Assembly (NCBI RefSeq): GCF_001889025.1
Contig: NZ_CP018154.1
Location: 1,044,501 to 1,108,500 of the forward strand
Direction: 5' to 3'
Source: Sphingorhabdus lutea
GTDB lineage: Bacteria > Pseudomonadota > Alphaproteobacteria > Sphingomonadales > Sphingomonadaceae
Length of the DNA: 64,000 bases
Shown here in pieces: positions 20,348-58,132 of the stretch (positions within the stretch are counted from its first letter, which is position 1; every line of letters starts with the position of its first letter). The notes under the pieces are model-generated. The model did no database searches and was not told the DNA's origin. It saw only the letters and a program-made list of their open reading frames with translations. Both the position numbers and the translations under genes were made by a program.

Positions 20348-23300
20348 CTAGTTACTTGTTAATAAATTTTCTGCCTGCCCCAAATCAACCGAAACCAAAC
20401 GGCTGACCCCCTGTTCAATCATGGTCACACCAAATAAACGGTGCATCCTGCTCATTGTCACGGCATTATGCGTCACGATTAAATATCTTGTGTTGGTTTC
20501 CTTGGTCATTGCGTCCAACAGGTCGCAAAATCGTTCAATATTGGCATCATCCAATGGCGCATCCACCTCATCCAACACGCAAATGGGGGCAGGATTGGTT
20601 AAAAATAACCCAAAGATAAGCGCGACCGCGGTCAATGCCTGTTCCCCGCCGGAAAGCAGGGTAAGCGAGGTTAATTTTTTACCCGGCGGCTGCGCCATAA
20701 TTTCCAGCCCCGCCTGTAATGGGTCTTCATCATCAATCAATTCCAAATGCGCCTGTCCACCATTGAATAAAGTGGTGAATAAACGTCTGAAATGTTCATT
20801 TACCGCTTCAAATGCGGCCAGTAAACGGGCGCGCCCCTCGCGGTTAAGCGACCCTATTGAGCCGCGCAATTGATTGATGGCAAGCGTCAATTCCTCTGCC
20901 TCGCTGCGGCCCCTATGTTGATCATCCTCCAATGCGGCCAATTCATCCGCCGCGACAAGGTTGACCGGGCCAATGCGTTCGCGTTCGGATTGTAACTTTT
21001 CCAATGTTGCGGATTCATGTGCGGCATCGCGCAATAAATTTTCATCAAATTCCAATTTTTCGGGTAATAATGGCGGCGGACATGAAAAACGCTCACCCGA
21101 TATGCGGCCCATTTCAATCCGGCGGCTTTCCTGATTTTCGGCGCGTGCCTGTGCCCCCGCGCGGGCTTCGCGCGCACTGGATAAAATTTCTGCGGCCTTG
21201 TGCAGATCACCCTCAATGGATTTTACCGCAATTTGGAGCATATTTTCCTGTTCCAAAATTAACGTCAATTTTTCTTGACGCTGCTCCATCTTTGTTTGTT
21301 CGGCAATGATGTCGCGCTGTAAATAGGCGGGGCGTTCACATAAAATATCTCGTTCCACCTCTATATCGGCAAGTTGAGATTTCATGGCGGCAATGCGTGT
21401 TTCCGCCTCGCCCGCGCGGTCCTGCCAATTGCGGATATTGGCCTGTGTTACCGCGCGTTTTTCCTTTATTTGCGCAATGCGTTGTTCCTGTGATGATAAT
21501 GCGGCCTGACGGGCCAGTAAATCCGCGCGGCCATTATCCAATTGGACGGAAATTTCGGCCAATTTCTGGTGAATATAATCGGCGGAAGGCAGGGCATTTC
21601 TTGCTTTTTTTGCTTCCTCATATTCGCTTTGCATCGGGGCAATATCCGTGCTTATGCCTGCAATTTCTTCATCTAACCTTTTAATATTGCCAGACATTCG
21701 TTCATGTTCCAACCGGGCCTTATCCCCATCGCGCAATGCGGTGCGATATAAATTTTCGCATTGGTTTTTCTGGGCAGAAATGTCGCCATGCATGCGGGAC
21801 AATTTGCCAATTTCATCGCCCATTTGCGAACATGATTGTTCGGCCAAATTCACCTTTTTTTGGGCAGTTTCTATTTCTTTTAGCAATGTTTTTTGCCGAT
21901 TTGCCTGTTGCAAATTGCGCGCAATAATCGCGCCATCGCCCTTTGTGATAAATCCATCCCATCGGCGCATGATGCCCGATAATGTTACCAATCTTTGCCC
22001 TTGATCCAATATGCGGCCATCGTCATGCTCTGCGACGATAATTTGTGCCAATCGGCGGTGCAATATGGACGGAGCGTCAACAAAATGGATTAACCTGTCC
22101 GCGCCAATGCTATTAAAATCAACGCCAAGGGCATTTGCATCATGTGGAAAAATACTCCAACGCCGATCGGCTATTTCGTCCATTTCGGCAAATAAATCAT
22201 CGCCCATCACACTGGCCAAGGCGGTTTCATAACCCGGCTGCGCGGTTATTTTTTGCACGATGCCGCCTTCATGCGATTGACGGGCCATTTCCTTGGACAG
22301 GGCGTTATTTTCGCTTTGCAATGCGGCCAATATGCTATCTTCGCTGGACCGTTGACGCTGTGCCTCATAATATTGCTCATCGGCGATTTTACGCTTTTGG
22401 GCTATATCTTCAATTTGCTGATTAATGATTTGTAATTGCTGTTCATTTTGTGCGGCATTGGTTTCAAATATTTGAATATTTTGGGACAATATTTCTATAT
22501 CTGGTAGGGCGGCCTTGGCCGATAATGCCCTTTGTTGCGCCGAATATAATCGGTCCATTTGCGTGCGGAGCGTCGTAACCCTATTATCGGCAACGCGAAT
22601 GTCTGCCTCCACCCGTGCTTGGTCGGCCAATGCGCGGGCATGGCTTAAATCATATTTGCGCACATCTTCCTCTGATTTGGCCAATGCTTTTTCAAATGCC
22701 GGACGCGCAGCTTCTTCTGCCCTTAAATCATCGGTCAAATCGGCCAACATGCTGCGTGAATCATCCAAATTTTGGGCCGCATCATGCGTCATTTTATCAT
22801 CGCGGGTTAATTCGTCCTGCAATCTTAACTGTTGACGTTCTAAATCATTTAATTTTTGCGCGGCTAAATTTGCCTCGCCTTGTAATTTCACCAAATTTTG
22901 GCTGGCATCATTGACGGCATCACGCGCAGCCAATGATTGCGCACGCTGACTGGCCAAATTTTTAATCGCCTCATCATTTTGGGCGGATAATTTTTGATGC
23001 GCGGCATGTGCCTCCTCCACTGCAATGGCGGCGGCCTGTGCCTCTGCTTTGGCAATATCTGCGGCGGACTTTGCCTCTTTCCACCGCACAAAAATCAATT
23101 TTGCTTCGGCCTGTTTAATTTGATCGGACAATTTGCGATATTTTTCGGCCTGACGTGCTTGTCTTTTTAAATTGCTGGCCCGCAATTCCATTTCGGATAA
23201 AATTAAATCCAGCTTTGATAAATTACTCTCCGCCGCACGTAATTTCTGTTCGGCATCTTTACGCCGCACATGTAATCCGGAAATGCCGGCTGCTTCCTCC

Positions 23301-51278: not shown

Positions 51279-52058
51279 ATGACCGTTAAAACACGCATCA
51301 TCCCCTGTTTGGACGTGGCCAATGGCCGCGTGGTAAAGGGCGTGAATTTTGTAAATTTGGTCGATGCGGGCGATCCGGTTGAACAGGCAAAGGCATATGA
51401 TGATGCCGGCGCGGATGAGCTTTGCTTTTTAGATATTTCCGCGACCAGTGACGGGCGCGGCACTTTATTGGACATGGTGCGCCGCACGGCAGAGGTATGT
51501 TTCATGCCATTAACCGTGGGCGGCGGGGTGCGCAGCGATGATGATGCGCGCGCATTATTATTGGCCGGCGCGGATAAGGTTGCGGTGAACAGCGCGGCGG
51601 TTTCCCGCCCCGAATTGGTGGGCGATATTGCACAAAGATTTGGCAGCCAATGCTGTGTTGCCTCCGTCGATGCGCGGCGCAGTATGAAAGAAGATGGCAC
51701 ATGGACCGGCAAATGGGAAATTTTCACCCATGGCGGGCGCAAGGCCACGGGAATTGATGCGGTGGACCATGCATTGAACCTAACCCGCCTTGGCGCGGGG
51801 GAATTATTGGTGACCAGCATGGATGGTGATGGCACAAAGGCGGGATATGATTTGGAGTTAATCCGCACCATATCCGATCAGGTGAACATTCCCGTGGTGG
51901 CCAGCGGCGGGGTTGGCAATTTGGACCATTTGGTTGACGGCGTGATAAAGGGACATGCCAGTGCGGTGTTGGCCGCATCTATTTTCCATTTTGGCGAATA
52001 TAGCATCGCGGAGGCAAAGGCCGCCCTGCGTAAAGCGGGAATATCTGCGCGGTCTTAA
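51279..52058 (+). CDS. hisF: imidazole glycerol phosphate synthase, cyclase subunit
   Basis: A 259-residue TIM barrel that uses ammonia from HisH to cyclise PRFAR, giving imidazole glycerol phosphate and AICAR. Catalytic Asp residues are in [15 protein letters not shown] (about D11) and in the [10 protein letters not shown] strand near residue 130; [11 protein letters not shown] is the phosphate site. It is the last gene of hisBHAF and is convergent with nrsF, 36 bases away. Confidence 0.95.
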
Positions 52059-52094
52059 TCGCCCAATATCCCCGTCTTTATTTTGAAATCCATA

Positions 52095-52730
52095 TTACCA
52101 ACGGATAAGGCGCGGGACGATAATCCGGCCCAATATTGCCGATATGGTAACGGCCAATCCATAATATAGGCCGATATAGGTAATATCGTTAAAAGGGCAG
52201 TGCAGATTATACGCAAATCCGCCAAACCCGCCTGCTGCTATTCCGGTTAACCAGCCCGCACGTTCGGGCGACGTTGGCGCACCTTTGCGCAGGTGCAGCA
52301 CCATGGGCACAGAAATGGCCAGTGCGGAAATTAACGATAATTGCAGGCATTCTGCGCCATATTGCGCCATGCTTGCTGCCACGCCCGGCCCGTTAATGAC
52401 GGCAAGGACAAGGCCGACAATGGGAAATAACGCCGCCGCGCCCAATGCAATGACCCAGCCATTATTATGCCGTCCCACCGATGGCGATGCCATGGCCAAT
52501 AATGCATGTGCCGTGACCCCGCCCAATAAAATTAACATGCCGGAACGCAGCAAAAACATGGGCGCTGGTTGCCCCGCCGCCAAATCGCCGCGCATACCTG
52601 TGCCAAAAATAATCGCCGCCATAGCAAGAATGACAACAATTGAAATTATGGCAAAACCGGTACGGCGGCTTAACCGCTTAACAGGCCTTAAATCATCAAC
52701 CAGATTGTCAATAAAGTTAAACTCATTCAT
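52095..52730 (-). CDS. nrsF: NrsF-like membrane anti-sigma factor (DUF1109)
   Basis: A 211-residue protein with a short cytosolic N-terminus and about six hydrophobic segments, matching DUF1109/NrsF. In Caulobacter NrsF holds sigma F at the membrane until metals attack two conserved cysteines (C131 and C181). Here C128 (YGAECLQ) and C178 (NLHCPF) have the same 50-residue spacing. It is adjacent to the sigma factor it should control; ATG 52730 was chosen over a TTG at 52745. Last gene of the transcript. Confidence 0.88.
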   Translation of the reverse strand: MNEFNFIDNLVDDLRPVKRLSRRTGFAIISIVVILAMAAIIFGTGMRGDLAAGQPAPMFLLRSGMLILLGGVTAHALLAMASPSVGRHNNGWVIALGAAALFPIVGLVLAVINGPGVAASMAQYGAECLQLSLISALAISVPMVLHLRKGAPTSPERAGWLTGIAAGGFGGFAYNLHCPFNDITYIGLYYGLAVTISAILGRIIVPRLIRW

Positions 52731-52745
52731 GTCATTCACTCTCAA

Positions 52746-53270
52746 TCATTCCGATTCAATCAACGCGGCCATTTTCTTTAACCCGCGATGTACATTTACC
52801 TTGACCAGCGCCTCGCTTTGGCCTGTTCGTTCACAGGCATCGGCAATGCTATGGCCCTCAATTTTGGTTAACCTTATCACCTCCGCCTGTGCAGGGGGGA
52901 TTTGGTCCAATAAACGCGATATGCCAATATTGGCGATAACCACCTCTTCATGGCTATCTTCCCCAATGGTTTCGGGGATTTCATCGGCCGCATGTTTATA
53001 TTCTTGCCGCAATTTATCGACCCAGCGATAGCGGGCAATGGCGGCCAACCAAGGCAGAAATGCACGGCTGCTATCATAGCTTTGTATTTTTTTATGCACC
53101 GACATCAATGTTTCCTGAATTAAATCATCGACCATATCGGGCGCAATTTTTTGTGCATAATATCGTTTCAACCATTTGGCCGTTTCTTTTAATAAAGCCG
53201 CATAGGAACTTTTATCGCCCTGCTGTGACTTTATCATCAAATCGCGTAATATACTGTCGCTCGCAATCAT
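52746..53270 (-). CDS. sigF: ECF sigma factor (SigF-type)
   Basis: A 174-residue ECF sigma factor. Region 2 is visible in MVDDLIQETLMSVHKKIQSYDSSRAFLPWLAAIARYRWVDKL in part, and region 4 in IEGHSIADACERTGQSEALVKVNVHRG, a helix-turn-helix for the -35 element. Its neighbours, NrsF and the bufferin genes, identify it as the Caulobacter SigF type, which responds to copper, cadmium or chromate. The start overlaps the doxX stop by 4 bp (ATGA). Its own promoter (53770-53795) matches the site in front of bufA1, so it is probably autoregulated. Confidence 0.92.
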   Translation of the reverse strand: MIASDSILRDLMIKSQQGDKSSYAALLKETAKWLKRYYAQKIAPDMVDDLIQETLMSVHKKIQSYDSSRAFLPWLAAIARYRWVDKLRQEYKHAADEIPETIGEDSHEEVVIANIGISRLLDQIPPAQAEVIRLTKIEGHSIADACERTGQSEALVKVNVHRGLKKMAALIESE

Positions 53271-53731
53271 GCTGCGTAACTCTTTCTTGATAAAATATGG
53301 TCAAGCGAGAATAGGCCGCCACCACGAACAATCAAGGTTAAAGCCATGGCGACCCAAATAATATGTACCTGCCACCATGCATCGGGATAAACAAAAAATT
53401 GAATAACCAATGTCATGATTAACAATGCTGTAGCAGAAATCCGCGTGAACAATCCCAAAATTAACAAAATGGGGAATAAATGTTCGGCATAGGTCGCCAT
53501 ATAGGCGGCAATATCAGACGGCAGGGGGACGCCTGCATATTCCTCCTCAAACAGGAATGTCGTGGTTTCACTTAGCTGTAGCCAGCTTCCTTCCTCTACC
53601 TTTGTTCGGCCCGAACGCCAGAATATGCCCGCCAAGGCAACACGCACAAATAAGAGCATCATCGCCTCTGGCACGCGGCCAGATATAAATGCCGCAAATT
53701 GATGGTAGCTATTTTGAATTTTATGTATCAT
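53267..53731 (-). CDS. DoxX family membrane protein
   Basis: A 154-residue DoxX-family protein with four hydrophobic segments (AMMLLFVRVALAGIFW, LFPILLILGLF, TALLIMTLVIQFF, IIWVAMALTLIV). DoxX proteins are widely found with bufferin (DUF692/DUF2063) genes and may provide an electron-transfer step for the oxidase. CAGGGAA precedes ATG 53731; the stop overlaps sigF by 4 bp. An ECF promoter lies directly upstream. Confidence 0.86.
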   Translation of the reverse strand: MIHKIQNSYHQFAAFISGRVPEAMMLLFVRVALAGIFWRSGRTKVEEGSWLQLSETTTFLFEEEYAGVPLPSDIAAYMATYAEHLFPILLILGLFTRISATALLIMTLVIQFFVYPDAWWQVHIIWVAMALTLIVRGGGLFSLDHILSRKSYAA

Positions 53732-53769
53732 CTTATATTCCCTGAATATTTAATCTCTATATATTGATA

Positions 53770-53795
53770 TTCGGGGGAAGGGATGAATAGGTTAC
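53770..53795 (-). promoter_or_regulatory. ECF promoter for doxX-sigF-nrsF
   Basis: Read on the minus strand: GTAACC, exactly 16 bases, then CGAA. The predicted start is about 30 bases before doxX. The element has the same bases and spacing as that before bufA1 and agrees with the consensus I recall for Caulobacter sigma F (GTAACC-N16-CGAA). Confidence 0.7.
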
Positions 53796-53832
53796 AATTA
53801 TGTAATTTTATTTTATTGCGACTTAAAAATAT

Positions 53833-54579
53833 TTATGGCTCAATCGACAATATCTGCATTTGGATAATGTCAATTAAAATGGGCAGGGGGTCATTAAAGC
53901 CCATTTCCTGAATAATATGGGATAGGATATTTTCAATTTTCGTTCCCTTATCAATCATGTTAATTAACTGGTATTGAACATGATTTAAGGGGATAAACAG
54001 CAGCTGTTCATGGGGGCGGTGAACGGCGATTGCCGCAACATCTGATGCGCTCATATCACCCAATATTTCATGCAAATCACCATGTAATGGCGCGTTGAGC
54101 GGGATTTGGAAAAATGAATATGTCGTTCGCAACATGGCCGATAATAGGCCCGCTTCGTCAAACCGGCCCAATTGTTCCAATGTTAAAATGTCATCGGCCA
54201 TGGCATGATAGCTTTTGAGCCAGGCCCATTCAATTTTGGCCAGATCGATGATGGCAATATCTTGCCCTTCTTCCTGCAAATAATCTGCAAAGCCATGTCC
54301 AATATCGCCATTATGACATATGCGTATATGCGGCAGTTCAATATATTTTCGCGAAATTTGGTTGAAATTATCTTCGCCCATCGCTGTGCGGGTCATGGGG
54401 AAAGTTTCTTCCAATGCCACCAACCGCGCATGGTTGATGGTGTTGGCATGAGCCATTAAGCCCAAAAATACGCGGTCTATTGGCCCTTTATACAGGCGTT
54501 CATCAATGCTATTTGGCCCTAAATTGATGCTATTGACAATATTGTCCAAAATATATTTGAAATTGGGCGGATTATCCAT
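53833..54579 (-). CDS. bufC: BufC/HvfC-like protein (DUF2063)
   Basis: A 248-residue protein with a DUF2063-type N-terminus (LVALEETFPMTRTAMGEDNFNQISRKYIE...ADYLQEEGQDIAIIDLAKIEWAWL), the partner of DUF692 oxidases. BufC helps deliver the precursor peptide to the modifying enzyme. Its start overlaps the bufB stop by 8 bp. It is followed by doxX after 100 bases that contain an ECF promoter. Confidence 0.85.
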   Translation of the reverse strand: MDNPPNFKYILDNIVNSINLGPNSIDERLYKGPIDRVFLGLMAHANTINHARLVALEETFPMTRTAMGEDNFNQISRKYIELPHIRICHNGDIGHGFADYLQEEGQDIAIIDLAKIEWAWLKSYHAMADDILTLEQLGRFDEAGLLSAMLRTTYSFFQIPLNAPLHGDLHEILGDMSASDVAAIAVHRPHEQLLFIPLNHVQYQLINMIDKGTKIENILSHIIQEMGFNDPLPILIDIIQMQILSIEP

Positions 54580-55504
54580 TTTGGCCAGCCTGTTGCTTAT
54601 TAACTGCCTGCTCTATAATGCGCCGCGCCTTTTTCACTTCATCCATTAAAATATCATATTGCGGGATATTATTATCCCATTCAATCAATATGGGGCAAGG
54701 AGGTGATTTGGACAGATAATATGAAAATAAATCCCAGCAATCATCATTGGGCGCGCGGCCATGATCGTCAATCAATAATGGGCCGCTATCATGATGTTCG
54801 ACAAAATGGCCGGCAAGGTGGATTTCGCCGACATGTTCGGGATTGATTTGGCCCAAATATTCATAGGCACTTAATCCCAAATTTTTGCAAGACACATCCA
54901 CATTATTTATGTCCAATATCATGCCGCATCCGGAAAGCTGACATAATATATCCATAAAGGTGGTTTCATCCATTTCATCATGGGTAAATGCCAAATAACG
55001 TGACGGATTTTCGATTAAAATTTTGCGGCCAAGCTCATGCTGCACAATATCAACCTGCGCGGCAAAATGCGTCAGCATTTCGGCGGTATAGGGGATGGGC
55101 AGTAAATCGGCAAAACGATCATGGGCATTGCCTGAAAAACTTAAATGGTCCGAAACGCTTGCGGGACTATATCGCGCGCAAATTTGTTTTAATCTGCGCA
55201 GTTCCTCGCGGTCAACGCCATCTGGAGAACCAAGGGACAGGGCGACAGAATGAAAACTTAATGGGTAAATTTCGGCAATGGCGGCTAGCCAATTATGTGA
55301 CGGGCCGCCACCCCATATACCATGAGGGCCGATATAATTTTGCGGATGAAGCTCCACCCATGCGGGTGAGTATATGACCTTATTTGATTCCGAGGAATGT
55401 TGGAGAAGGTTATCATAATGGTCTGGTTTTAAACCAATCCCCACATCATGTGGCAGGGGGGCTGGATTGGTTAATTTGCTTTCCATATGATCGGTGGGCT
55501 TCAT
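54572..55504 (-). CDS. bufB: MNIO oxidase (DUF692, BufB)
   Basis: A 310-residue DUF692 (multinuclear non-heme iron oxidase) protein with a TIM-barrel fold. Signature segments include the N-terminal GIGLKPDHYDNLL, SDHLSFSG, LIENPSRY, MILDINNVDVS and EIHLAGHFVEHHDSGPLLIDDHG, which carry the His/Asp/Glu iron ligands. It modifies cysteines of the bufferin precursor. The start is uncertain between ATG 55504 and ATG 55486; neither has a strong ribosome site. The gene overlaps bufC by 8 bp and follows bufA1 by 19 bases. Confidence 0.93.
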   Translation of the reverse strand: MKPTDHMESKLTNPAPLPHDVGIGLKPDHYDNLLQHSSESNKVIYSPAWVELHPQNYIGPHGIWGGGPSHNWLAAIAEIYPLSFHSVALSLGSPDGVDREELRRLKQICARYSPASVSDHLSFSGNAHDRFADLLPIPYTAEMLTHFAAQVDIVQHELGRKILIENPSRYLAFTHDEMDETTFMDILCQLSGCGMILDINNVDVSCKNLGLSAYEYLGQINPEHVGEIHLAGHFVEHHDSGPLLIDDHGRAPNDDCWDLFSYYLSKSPPCPILIEWDNNIPQYDILMDEVKKARRIIEQAVNKQQAGQNG

Positions 55505-55523
55505 CTACAAAATTACTTAATTT

Positions 55524-55808
55524 TTATTTTTTTGGCTTTGGCGCCATATTGCCGGCTTTTGCTTTTAATGAACCGCCCATTTTAACGCAGCTGCCTTTTG
55601 CTACATATTTCCATGCATTGCCTTGATAATCAACGGTGGATGTTCCTGCACAGCTTGTGCCTGGACCGGCGGCGCAATCATTTTTACCTTTTAATGAAAC
55701 GCCATAGCATTTTTCCTTTGCACCGGCGGCAACCGCAGGGGTTGAAATCAATGCTGCGGCAGCGGTTAAAGAAGCAGCAGCGGCGGTAATTTTCAAAATA
55801 TTATTCAT
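55524..55808 (-). CDS. bufA1: bufferin precursor peptide (BufA1, DUF2282)
   Basis: A 94-residue secreted peptide. A signal peptide (to about AVAA, residue 28) is followed by a core with four cysteines, C34 ([11 protein letters not shown]), C45 (NDCAAG), C53 (TSCAGT) and C74 (KGSCVKMG), the DUF2282 pattern of bufferin copper-binding RiPPs; cysteines are converted to thiooxazoles by BufB. The lysine-rich tail is usual. TTGGAG precedes ATG 55808; an ECF promoter lies about 80 bases upstream. First gene of the bufABC unit. Confidence 0.93.
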
Positions 55809-55890
55809 GTTAATCTCCAAAAAAAAATCTATTTATAATCTTGCCATCATCGGCGCAAATTACGCATCCATTTATGATGTCATAAGGGGT

Positions 55891-55916
55891 TTCGTGGATA
55901 ATGAGAAAAAGGTTAC
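55891..55916 (-). promoter_or_regulatory. ECF promoter for bufA1-bufB-bufC
   Basis: Read on the minus strand: GTAACC (complement of 55911-55916), exactly 16 bases, then CGAA (55891-55894). It is about 80 bases upstream of the bufA1 ATG. It is the same element as that in front of doxX-sigF-nrsF and fits control by the sigF product. Confidence 0.72.
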
Positions 55917-55993
55917 AAATTTTCTTTGAAAAAATATTTTTTTTATCCCTGCTGGCCCTTGACCTTTATTTTTAAAACGCCATATGGGCGATG

Positions 55994-56020
55994 TTAGCAC
56001 TCGATATGATAGAGTGCTAG
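55994..56020 (+). promoter_or_regulatory. CIRCE element (HrcA operator)
   Basis: TTAGCACTC, 9 bases, GAGTGCTAG: the CIRCE inverted repeat with one mismatch in the final base. It is about 100 bases upstream of groES, so HrcA probably represses groESL. Confidence 0.92.
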
Positions 56021-56118
56021 TTTGAAATCAACATATTGTTTTTGGGGCGGTATCGCAGAATTTTTCGCGTTAGCGCATCCAAAATCAATGTATAACCTAT
56101 TGAAAGAAAGGCACGTAT

Positions 56119-56406
56119 ATGACATTTCGTCCATTGCATGACCGCGTTCTTGTTCGCCGTGTAGAAGCAGAAGAAAAGACCGCTGGTGGAATCATTATCC
56201 CTGATAGTGCGCAGGAAAAGCCACAAGAAGGTGAAATTGTTTCCGTTGGAACAGGCACAAAATCAGAAGACGGCAAAGTCACGCCGCTTGATGTAAAGGC
56301 CGGCGACCGCGTGTTATTTGGTAAATGGTCAGGCACCGAAATTAAAGTCGGTGGTGAAGACCTTATCATCATGAAAGAAAGCGATATTTTGGGGATTTTG
56401 GGATAA
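56119..56406 (+). CDS. groES: co-chaperonin GroES
   Basis: A 95-residue GroES, the heptameric lid of GroEL. The mobile loop [19 protein letters not shown] and the start [14 protein letters not shown] are typical. AAAGG precedes ATG 56119. CIRCE lies upstream; groEL follows 70 bases downstream. Confidence 0.97.
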
Positions 56407-56443
56407 TTTATTCCATATAACACGCATATTTCATGCCGTGTAA

Positions 56444-58132
<1,689 letters not shown>

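Follow-up and report, generated by a model that had tools for sequence, protein, structure and literature searches.

The complete Buf1 bufferin locus of Sphingorhabdus lutea, its SigF/NrsF pair and a predicted regulon that includes envelope methionine repair

The window analysed here is a stretch of 64,000 nt from Sphingorhabdus lutea (contig NZ_CP018154.1, positions 1,044,501 to 1,108,500). It contains a bufferin locus of six genes, all on the minus strand, with an extracytoplasmic function (ECF) sigma factor gene, sigF, and the gene of its anti-sigma factor, nrsF. Coordinates and Pfam matches (Table 1) confirm the two consecutive units that had been proposed, bufA-bufB-bufC and doxX-sigF-nrsF; in the second the start of sigF overlaps the stop of doxX. 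The evidence supports a Buf1 bufferin gene set that is complete, has a SigF/NrsF pair of its own and carries two promoters of the SigF type.

Table 1. Features of the bufferin locus (window coordinates; stop codons are included in genes) and further candidate SigF sites in the S. lutea genome (genome coordinates)
Feature	Position	Strand	Evidence or placement
bufA (Buf1 precursor, DUF2282; 94 amino acids)	55808-55524	minus	Pfam DUF2282 84.7 bits, cut-off 22.4
bufB (MNIO enzyme; frame of 310 amino acids)	55504-54572	minus	Pfam MbnB_TglH_ChrH 286.2 bits, cut-off 25
bufC (DUF2063 partner; 248 amino acids)	54579-53833	minus	Pfam DUF2063 31 bits, cut-off 27.2
doxX (154 amino acids)	53731-53267	minus	Pfam DoxX 67.3 bits, cut-off 23.6
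sigF (ECF sigma factor; 174 amino acids)	53270-52746	minus	Pfam Sigma70_r2 and Sigma70_r4_2, both above cut-off
nrsF (anti-sigma factor; 211 amino acids)	52730-52095	minus	Pfam NrsF 134.5 bits, cut-off 26.8
SigF-type promoter of bufABC, GTAACC-N16-CGAA	55916-55891	minus	-10 end 82 nt upstream of bufA ATG
SigF-type promoter of doxX-sigF-nrsF, GTAACC-N16-CGAA	53795-53770	minus	-10 end 38 nt upstream of doxX ATG
Microprotein site	308845-308820	minus	48 nt ahead of a 56-codon open reading frame, or 66 nt ahead of an inner ATG (50 codons)
Exported MsrA site, CGTA	1542135-1542160	plus	10 or 34 nt ahead of MsrA with N-terminal leader
Tat-type MsrB site, CGTA	262044-262019	minus	9 or 24 nt ahead of MsrB with twin-arginine leader
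Surface_Ag_2 site, exact motif	2258946-2258921	minus	29 or 35 nt ahead of exported protein (L256)

BufA has an N-terminal leader of the Sec type, judged by eye, and four cysteines (34, 45, 53 and 74); with its DUF2282 match these file it as a putative Buf1 precursor. NrsF carries the cysteine pair noted in the original prediction, C128 and C178, which is 50 residues apart, as are C131 and C181 of Caulobacter NrsF. The NCBIfam models tried were missed by BufB (305 bits against MNIO_BufB, narrowly below the cut-off of 310), by BufA (32.2 bits against the BufA2 equivalog, NF050166, cut-off 60), by DoxX (59.8 against the HvfX model for maturation of ribosomally synthesised and post-translationally modified peptides, cut-off 80) and, clearly, by NrsF (73.3 bits against the stricter AntiSigF_NrsF, cut-off 300). 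Missed equivalog cut-offs fit a distant but ordinary member. BufB has relatives with solved structures (3bww, 8hci, MbnB), while single-sequence searches with NrsF and BufA gave no such relative. Rfam gave no match at gathering scores in the region 51500-57500.

A bufferin locus with SigF/NrsF is of an already known kind, and the order of its genes is ordinary for Sphingomonadaceae. Published systems are described here from portions of the papers cited. The S. lutea locus is the same in kind as the Buf1 clusters of Antoine 2025 (PMC12452194), with a four-cysteine DUF2282 precursor, MNIO, DUF2063, DoxX, a sigma factor and NrsF. The SigF-NrsF regulon of Caulobacter vibrioides consists of sigF-nrsF, CC3254-3257 (bufA-bufB-bufC-doxX), CC2907-2905 and CC2748/MsrPQ. 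S. lutea shares its gene families, the cysteine spacing of NrsF, the motif GTAACC-N16-CGAA reported for Caulobacter SigF (PMC3511200) and, as a prediction, periplasmic methionine sulfoxide repair within the regulon; it differs in that doxX heads the sigF unit and that there is one MNIO locus. The ECF16 systems RpoE7/EcfR7 of Sinorhizobium (PMC6180224) and BcrS/AbcS of Brucella (PMC8315932) likewise belong to a sigma/anti-sigma group with two conserved cysteines. RpoE7 is reported to drive a DUF692-DUF2063 operon and BcrS to drive methionine repair genes, each showing one half (metallophore or methionine repair), whereas S. lutea, like Caulobacter, is predicted to have both.

Gene order was compared over a sample of 149 Sphingomonadaceae genomes, 75 of which have NrsF. 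The S. lutea locus and 80 fetched stretches make up 81 NrsF loci, four places with partial or weak NrsF being omitted, and 80 of the 82 NrsF sequences at these loci keep the pair of the C128/C178 type. The original prediction considered the order, with doxX ahead of sigF and the sigma unit after bufC, to be a variant worth noting. It is instead common, and its rarity was rejected, this being one of three main orders among the 81 loci. Thirteen have bufABC or bufBC and then doxX-sigF-nrsF on one strand, as in S. lutea (at one of them, L101, bufA was not detected); in 16 the doxX-sigF-nrsF unit, again headed by doxX, has divergent buf genes; and in 10 the bufferin genes lie behind nrsF. At the other 42 there is no bufB-bufC pair within the fetched stretch, which for eight of these is shorter than 14 kb.

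Two side observations concern these loci. At divergent loci a second BufA-like frame frequently lies ahead of doxX (L118, L119, L123, L142, L146 and similar), such that both units may begin with a bufferin gene; the second BufA-like protein from L126 is a DUF2282 protein by Pfam. Bufferin genes are absent from three NrsF loci at which the SigF motif lies upstream of an exported-looking protein with the sequence CSSCPP, ahead of sigF (L112:5403-5428, L114:5404-5429 and L163:5860-5885, counted with nrsF on the plus strand). The copy from L112 is a DUF1223 protein by Pfam, and the CSSCPP protein is perhaps another thiol-based SigF target.

GTAACC, 16 bases and CGAA were found ahead of both units of the S. 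lutea locus, at 55891-55916 and 53770-53795, as originally predicted. When the spacer may be 15, 16 or 17 bases long, three motif matches are counted in the window where 0.19 would be expected, and 100 shuffles always gave fewer than three; the remaining match, 22575-22599, was set aside as a promoter because its spacer is 15 bases. Among Sphingomonadaceae loci with bufB, the exact motif lies upstream of bufA or bufB in 25 of 40 (on average 0.04 and at most 3 for 199 permuted motifs), and it lies upstream of doxX in 23 of 38 (permuted mean 0.005, maximum 1). Spacers of 13-15 and 17-19 gave no matches at these loci except one of the 40, at spacer 17. This recurrence in relatives far exceeds the permuted controls, and we take the two predicted promoters to be real signals.

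The intergenic region that holds the buf promoter also holds an inverted repeat of the CIRCE (controlling inverted repeat of chaperone expression) type, at 55994-56020, between groES and the promoter and some 80 bases ahead of the -35 element of buf, so that heat-shock and copper units share the region. It has one mismatch to the CIRCE consensus, where none was expected (100 shuffles), and presumably belongs to groES rather than to the SigF circuit.

The S. lutea genome, a single contig of 2.53 Mb, carries one NrsF gene and one MNIO gene. A genome-wide search for the motif, as the original prediction had proposed, yielded eight sites of GTAACC-N16-CGWA. Two are those at bufA and doxX, while those ahead of the microprotein, msrA and msrB lie outside the window. 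Six of the eight stand just before genes; chance levels for this count were calculated from assumed fractions of 5% and 10% only and are given no weight. The MsrA behind its site matches Pfam PMSR (196.7 bits, cut-off 23.7) and the MsrB matches SelR (165.1 bits, cut-off 24.9); NCBIfam agrees in both cases, and the MsrA leader and the RR leader of MsrB were read by eye. The other msrA of S. lutea lacks a leader of this kind, and no site at its locus comes closer to the motif than two mismatches. The exported protein behind the site ending at 2258921 matches Surface_Ag_2 (24.8, cut-off 22) and is a possible further member of the regulon. Where Caulobacter has MsrPQ, S. lutea is thus predicted to have an exported MsrA, a Tat-type (twin-arginine translocation) MsrB and a microprotein; MsrPQ was not searched for there. 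In open-access text we did not find a link of SigF to exported MsrA or MsrB or to this microprotein.

The exact motif also stands just ahead of the aconitase gene in four Sphingorhabdus relatives with NrsF (L309:1508-1533 and L311:1550-1575 and L312:1789-1814, plus strand; L310:5518-5543, minus strand). The spacer sequence is changed among these sites, which are 15-18 kb from nrsF; the L310 aconitase was checked by Pfam.

We consider it likely that the Buf1 locus is run by a putative ECF16-type SigF/NrsF switch and that copper capture is thereby coupled to methionine repair in the envelope. The genes, motifs, positions and co-occurrence with NrsF come directly from sequence, and the SigF/NrsF mechanism, the copper induction and the copper binding are carried over from Caulobacter. 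There NrsF is reported to have six membrane helices, with its cysteines facing the periplasm, and to hold SigF until stress, after which SigF is in the cytoplasm; C131 and C181 matter for this (PMC3511200). Copper raised the Caulobacter SigF regulon, including sigF, nrsF, the buf genes and the MsrPQ pair, and a sigF mutant was copper-sensitive, growing poorly with copper (PMC8224329). On this model, S. lutea NrsF in the inner membrane would hold SigF in the resting state, and an envelope insult, most likely copper, would act on C128 and C178 and free it. SigF would then read the GTAACC-N16-CGAA and CGTA promoters, raising its own unit and bufABC and also the exported MsrA, the Tat-type MsrB and the small membrane-type protein. 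BufB and BufC would modify the central cysteines of the bufferin, which may then chelate copper in the periplasm. The modified cysteines of Buf1 are the two in the centre, the outer pair being joined in a disulfide, and bufferins are described as holding copper in the periplasm through thiooxazoles (PMC12452194), which disagrees with the secreted peptide of the original prediction. Because the same promoter precedes msrA, msrB and the microprotein, copper capture and repair of oxidised methionine in the envelope would be one response, in which MsrPQ fills the corresponding slot in Caulobacter.

The closed circuit that had been proposed, in which metal frees SigF and SigF raises the bufferin, matches the copper induction of sigF, nrsF and the buf genes in Caulobacter; NrsF-family regulators are, however, reported to have triggers other than metal, hypochlorous acid being the one for the relative in Brucella (PMC8315932). 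By analogy with that system an oxidant is a serious rival for the trigger. The circuit would be the same, its natural signal being a chlorine- or oxygen-based oxidant of envelope cysteines and methionines, with copper as one route and with a bufferin that mainly stops copper-driven oxidation. Exported MsrA and MsrB would be expected company for such a signal within the predicted regulon, and Brucella BcrS/AbcS drives a methionine-rich peptide and MsrPQ-like genes (PMC8315932). Yet the Caulobacter SigF genes reportedly showed no induction by compounds that generate reactive oxygen (PMC3511200), copper did induce them (PMC8224329), and a copper chelator is among the main products of the circuit. 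We therefore regard an oxidant as possible, on the unlikely side, and keep copper as the favoured trigger.

How far the regulon extends beyond the locus was judged mainly from the microprotein. In S. lutea it has 50-56 amino acids, with a basic start, the sequence RSDLF, a hydrophobic stretch rich in glycine and a tail of a few residues. It matches no family in Pfam or NCBIfam; the G177 copy likewise has no Pfam family, and two other copies gave Pfam and NCBIfam matches below cut-offs only. A ten-row profile search found it in 51 of the 149 Sphingomonadaceae genomes, 50 of which were examined (G148 was left out). An earlier search with a single sequence had given 12 genomes, and its matches in L079 and L084 were rejected as frames inside long open reading frames; the profile found other places there.

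In 18 of 26 genomes with NrsF, and in one of 24 without, the 200 nt ahead of the microprotein contain the exact motif (Fisher p = 1.4e-6), two genomes with NrsF fragments being scored as without. Excluding S. lutea, which was found through its promoter, leaves 17 of 25 against one of 24 (p = 3e-6), and allowing one mismatch gives 21 of 26 against two of 24. Together 19 of the 50 upstream regions have the exact motif, compared with 0.008 on average and never more than 1 for 2159 permuted motifs. When the spacer length is varied from 12 to 20, there are 19 at 16, one at 15 and none elsewhere. Within the genus Sphingorhabdus the microprotein occurs in 32 of 45 genomes and NrsF in 20 of 45. At 28 further genus loci a site with at most one mismatch is present in nine of 14 with NrsF (three of the nine exact) as against none of the 14 that lack it (p = 0.0006). 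These counts are not independent, because many copies within the genus are almost the same. The microprotein is a conserved gene whose promoter follows the presence of NrsF. G163 (L261) keeps NrsF, but its microprotein frame is interrupted by a stop and lacks the SigF motif, so that it may be a copy in decay.

For MsrB we chose 30 genomes, 16 with NrsF and bufB-bufC and 14 without NrsF, of which 29 had an MsrB match. With up to one mismatch allowed, a site precedes MsrB in eight of 16 with NrsF and in none of 13 without (p = 0.003). The association of the MsrB motif with NrsF is weaker evidence than that for the microprotein.

Several points weigh against copper capture and methionine repair as a single SigF response. 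The exact motif is upstream of MsrB in three of 16 against none of 13, which is not significant (p = 0.23), and the test with one mismatch falls to eight of 16 against none of nine (p = 0.022) once four MsrB matches from genomes without NrsF are dropped, which look short and leaderless and so serve less well as controls. Both Msr sites of S. lutea read CGTA, one base from CGAA. The site at 869277 is intergenic, ahead of an open reading frame without obvious link, and that at 221276 sits within a gene on the opposite strand. Eight of the 26 NrsF genomes have no exact motif ahead of the microprotein, and the tests of motif against NrsF across genomes ignore kinship. H2O2, Cd and chromate all reportedly failed to induce RpoE7 of S. 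meliloti, which drives a like operon (PMC6180224). Lastly, regulation in S. lutea is predicted only: we infer both the SigF reading of its promoters and the role of the microprotein.

The CGTA sites and the exact-motif MsrB test would also suit a regulon in which bufABC and doxX-sigF-nrsF are the only SigF targets, the motifs at msrA, msrB and the microprotein being due to chance or to another regulator, as would the occurrence of the motif somewhere in 138 of the 149 genomes when only 75 have NrsF. Against this, the exact microprotein sites far outnumber those of any permuted motif and are specific to a spacer of 16, and their presence tracks NrsF, which makes so narrow a regulon improbable. 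The wider regulon, with methionine repair beside the bufferin, remains our preferred reading.

At 45 of the 50 Sphingomonadaceae loci msrA lies directly downstream of the microprotein, mostly touching or overlapping it, and the microprotein could be a mere leader frame for translational coupling to msrA, without any further function; this is very doubtful, as no msrA follows it in S. lutea, none lies within the next 1.1 kb at seven of the 28 genus loci, and the stand-alone copies are maintained by selection at the protein level. In an alignment of 27 codons from 25 copies of the genus, 182 of the 300 pairs are of middling divergence, and every one of these has fewer non-synonymous than synonymous changes per site. 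Among six stand-alone copies (27 codons), 14 pairs have 6-21 synonymous and 0-5 non-synonymous changes, the fifteenth pair being nearly identical. The S. lutea copy is more diverged, with 12.5-18.5 non-synonymous against 18-19.5 synonymous changes to the six, or per site about 0.3 against 0.6-0.9. Stand-alone copies are, on this pattern, under selection on the protein, and because of the pattern in genus and stand-alone copies alike the microprotein is probably translated and more than an msrA leader.

A broader proposal, which we advance tentatively and hold to be somewhat doubtful in its entirety, is that SigF/NrsF of Sphingomonadaceae governs one response to copper and envelope oxidation that pairs the bufferin with exported MsrA and MsrB. 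The microprotein, of 35-60 amino acids with one hydrophobic stretch and a signature of roughly [KR]SDLF, then GF-x-x-G, would be a membrane partner of MsrA (an anchor or a helper in electron delivery, say) or, where it stands alone, a feedback partner of NrsF.

The locus alone repeats the Caulobacter lesson in another bacterial group, and the useful part is the wider regulon. What is new is that the SigF motif stands also ahead of exported methionine-repair enzymes and of an unnamed membrane-type microprotein. This conserved microprotein, which has no Pfam or NCBIfam match, gains a regulon and a partner gene, and its role is thereby directly testable. The comparison suggests that across alphaproteobacteria copper buffering and the repair of oxidised envelope methionine are one response, in which the repair slot is filled by MsrPQ in Caulobacter and by MsrA and MsrB here.

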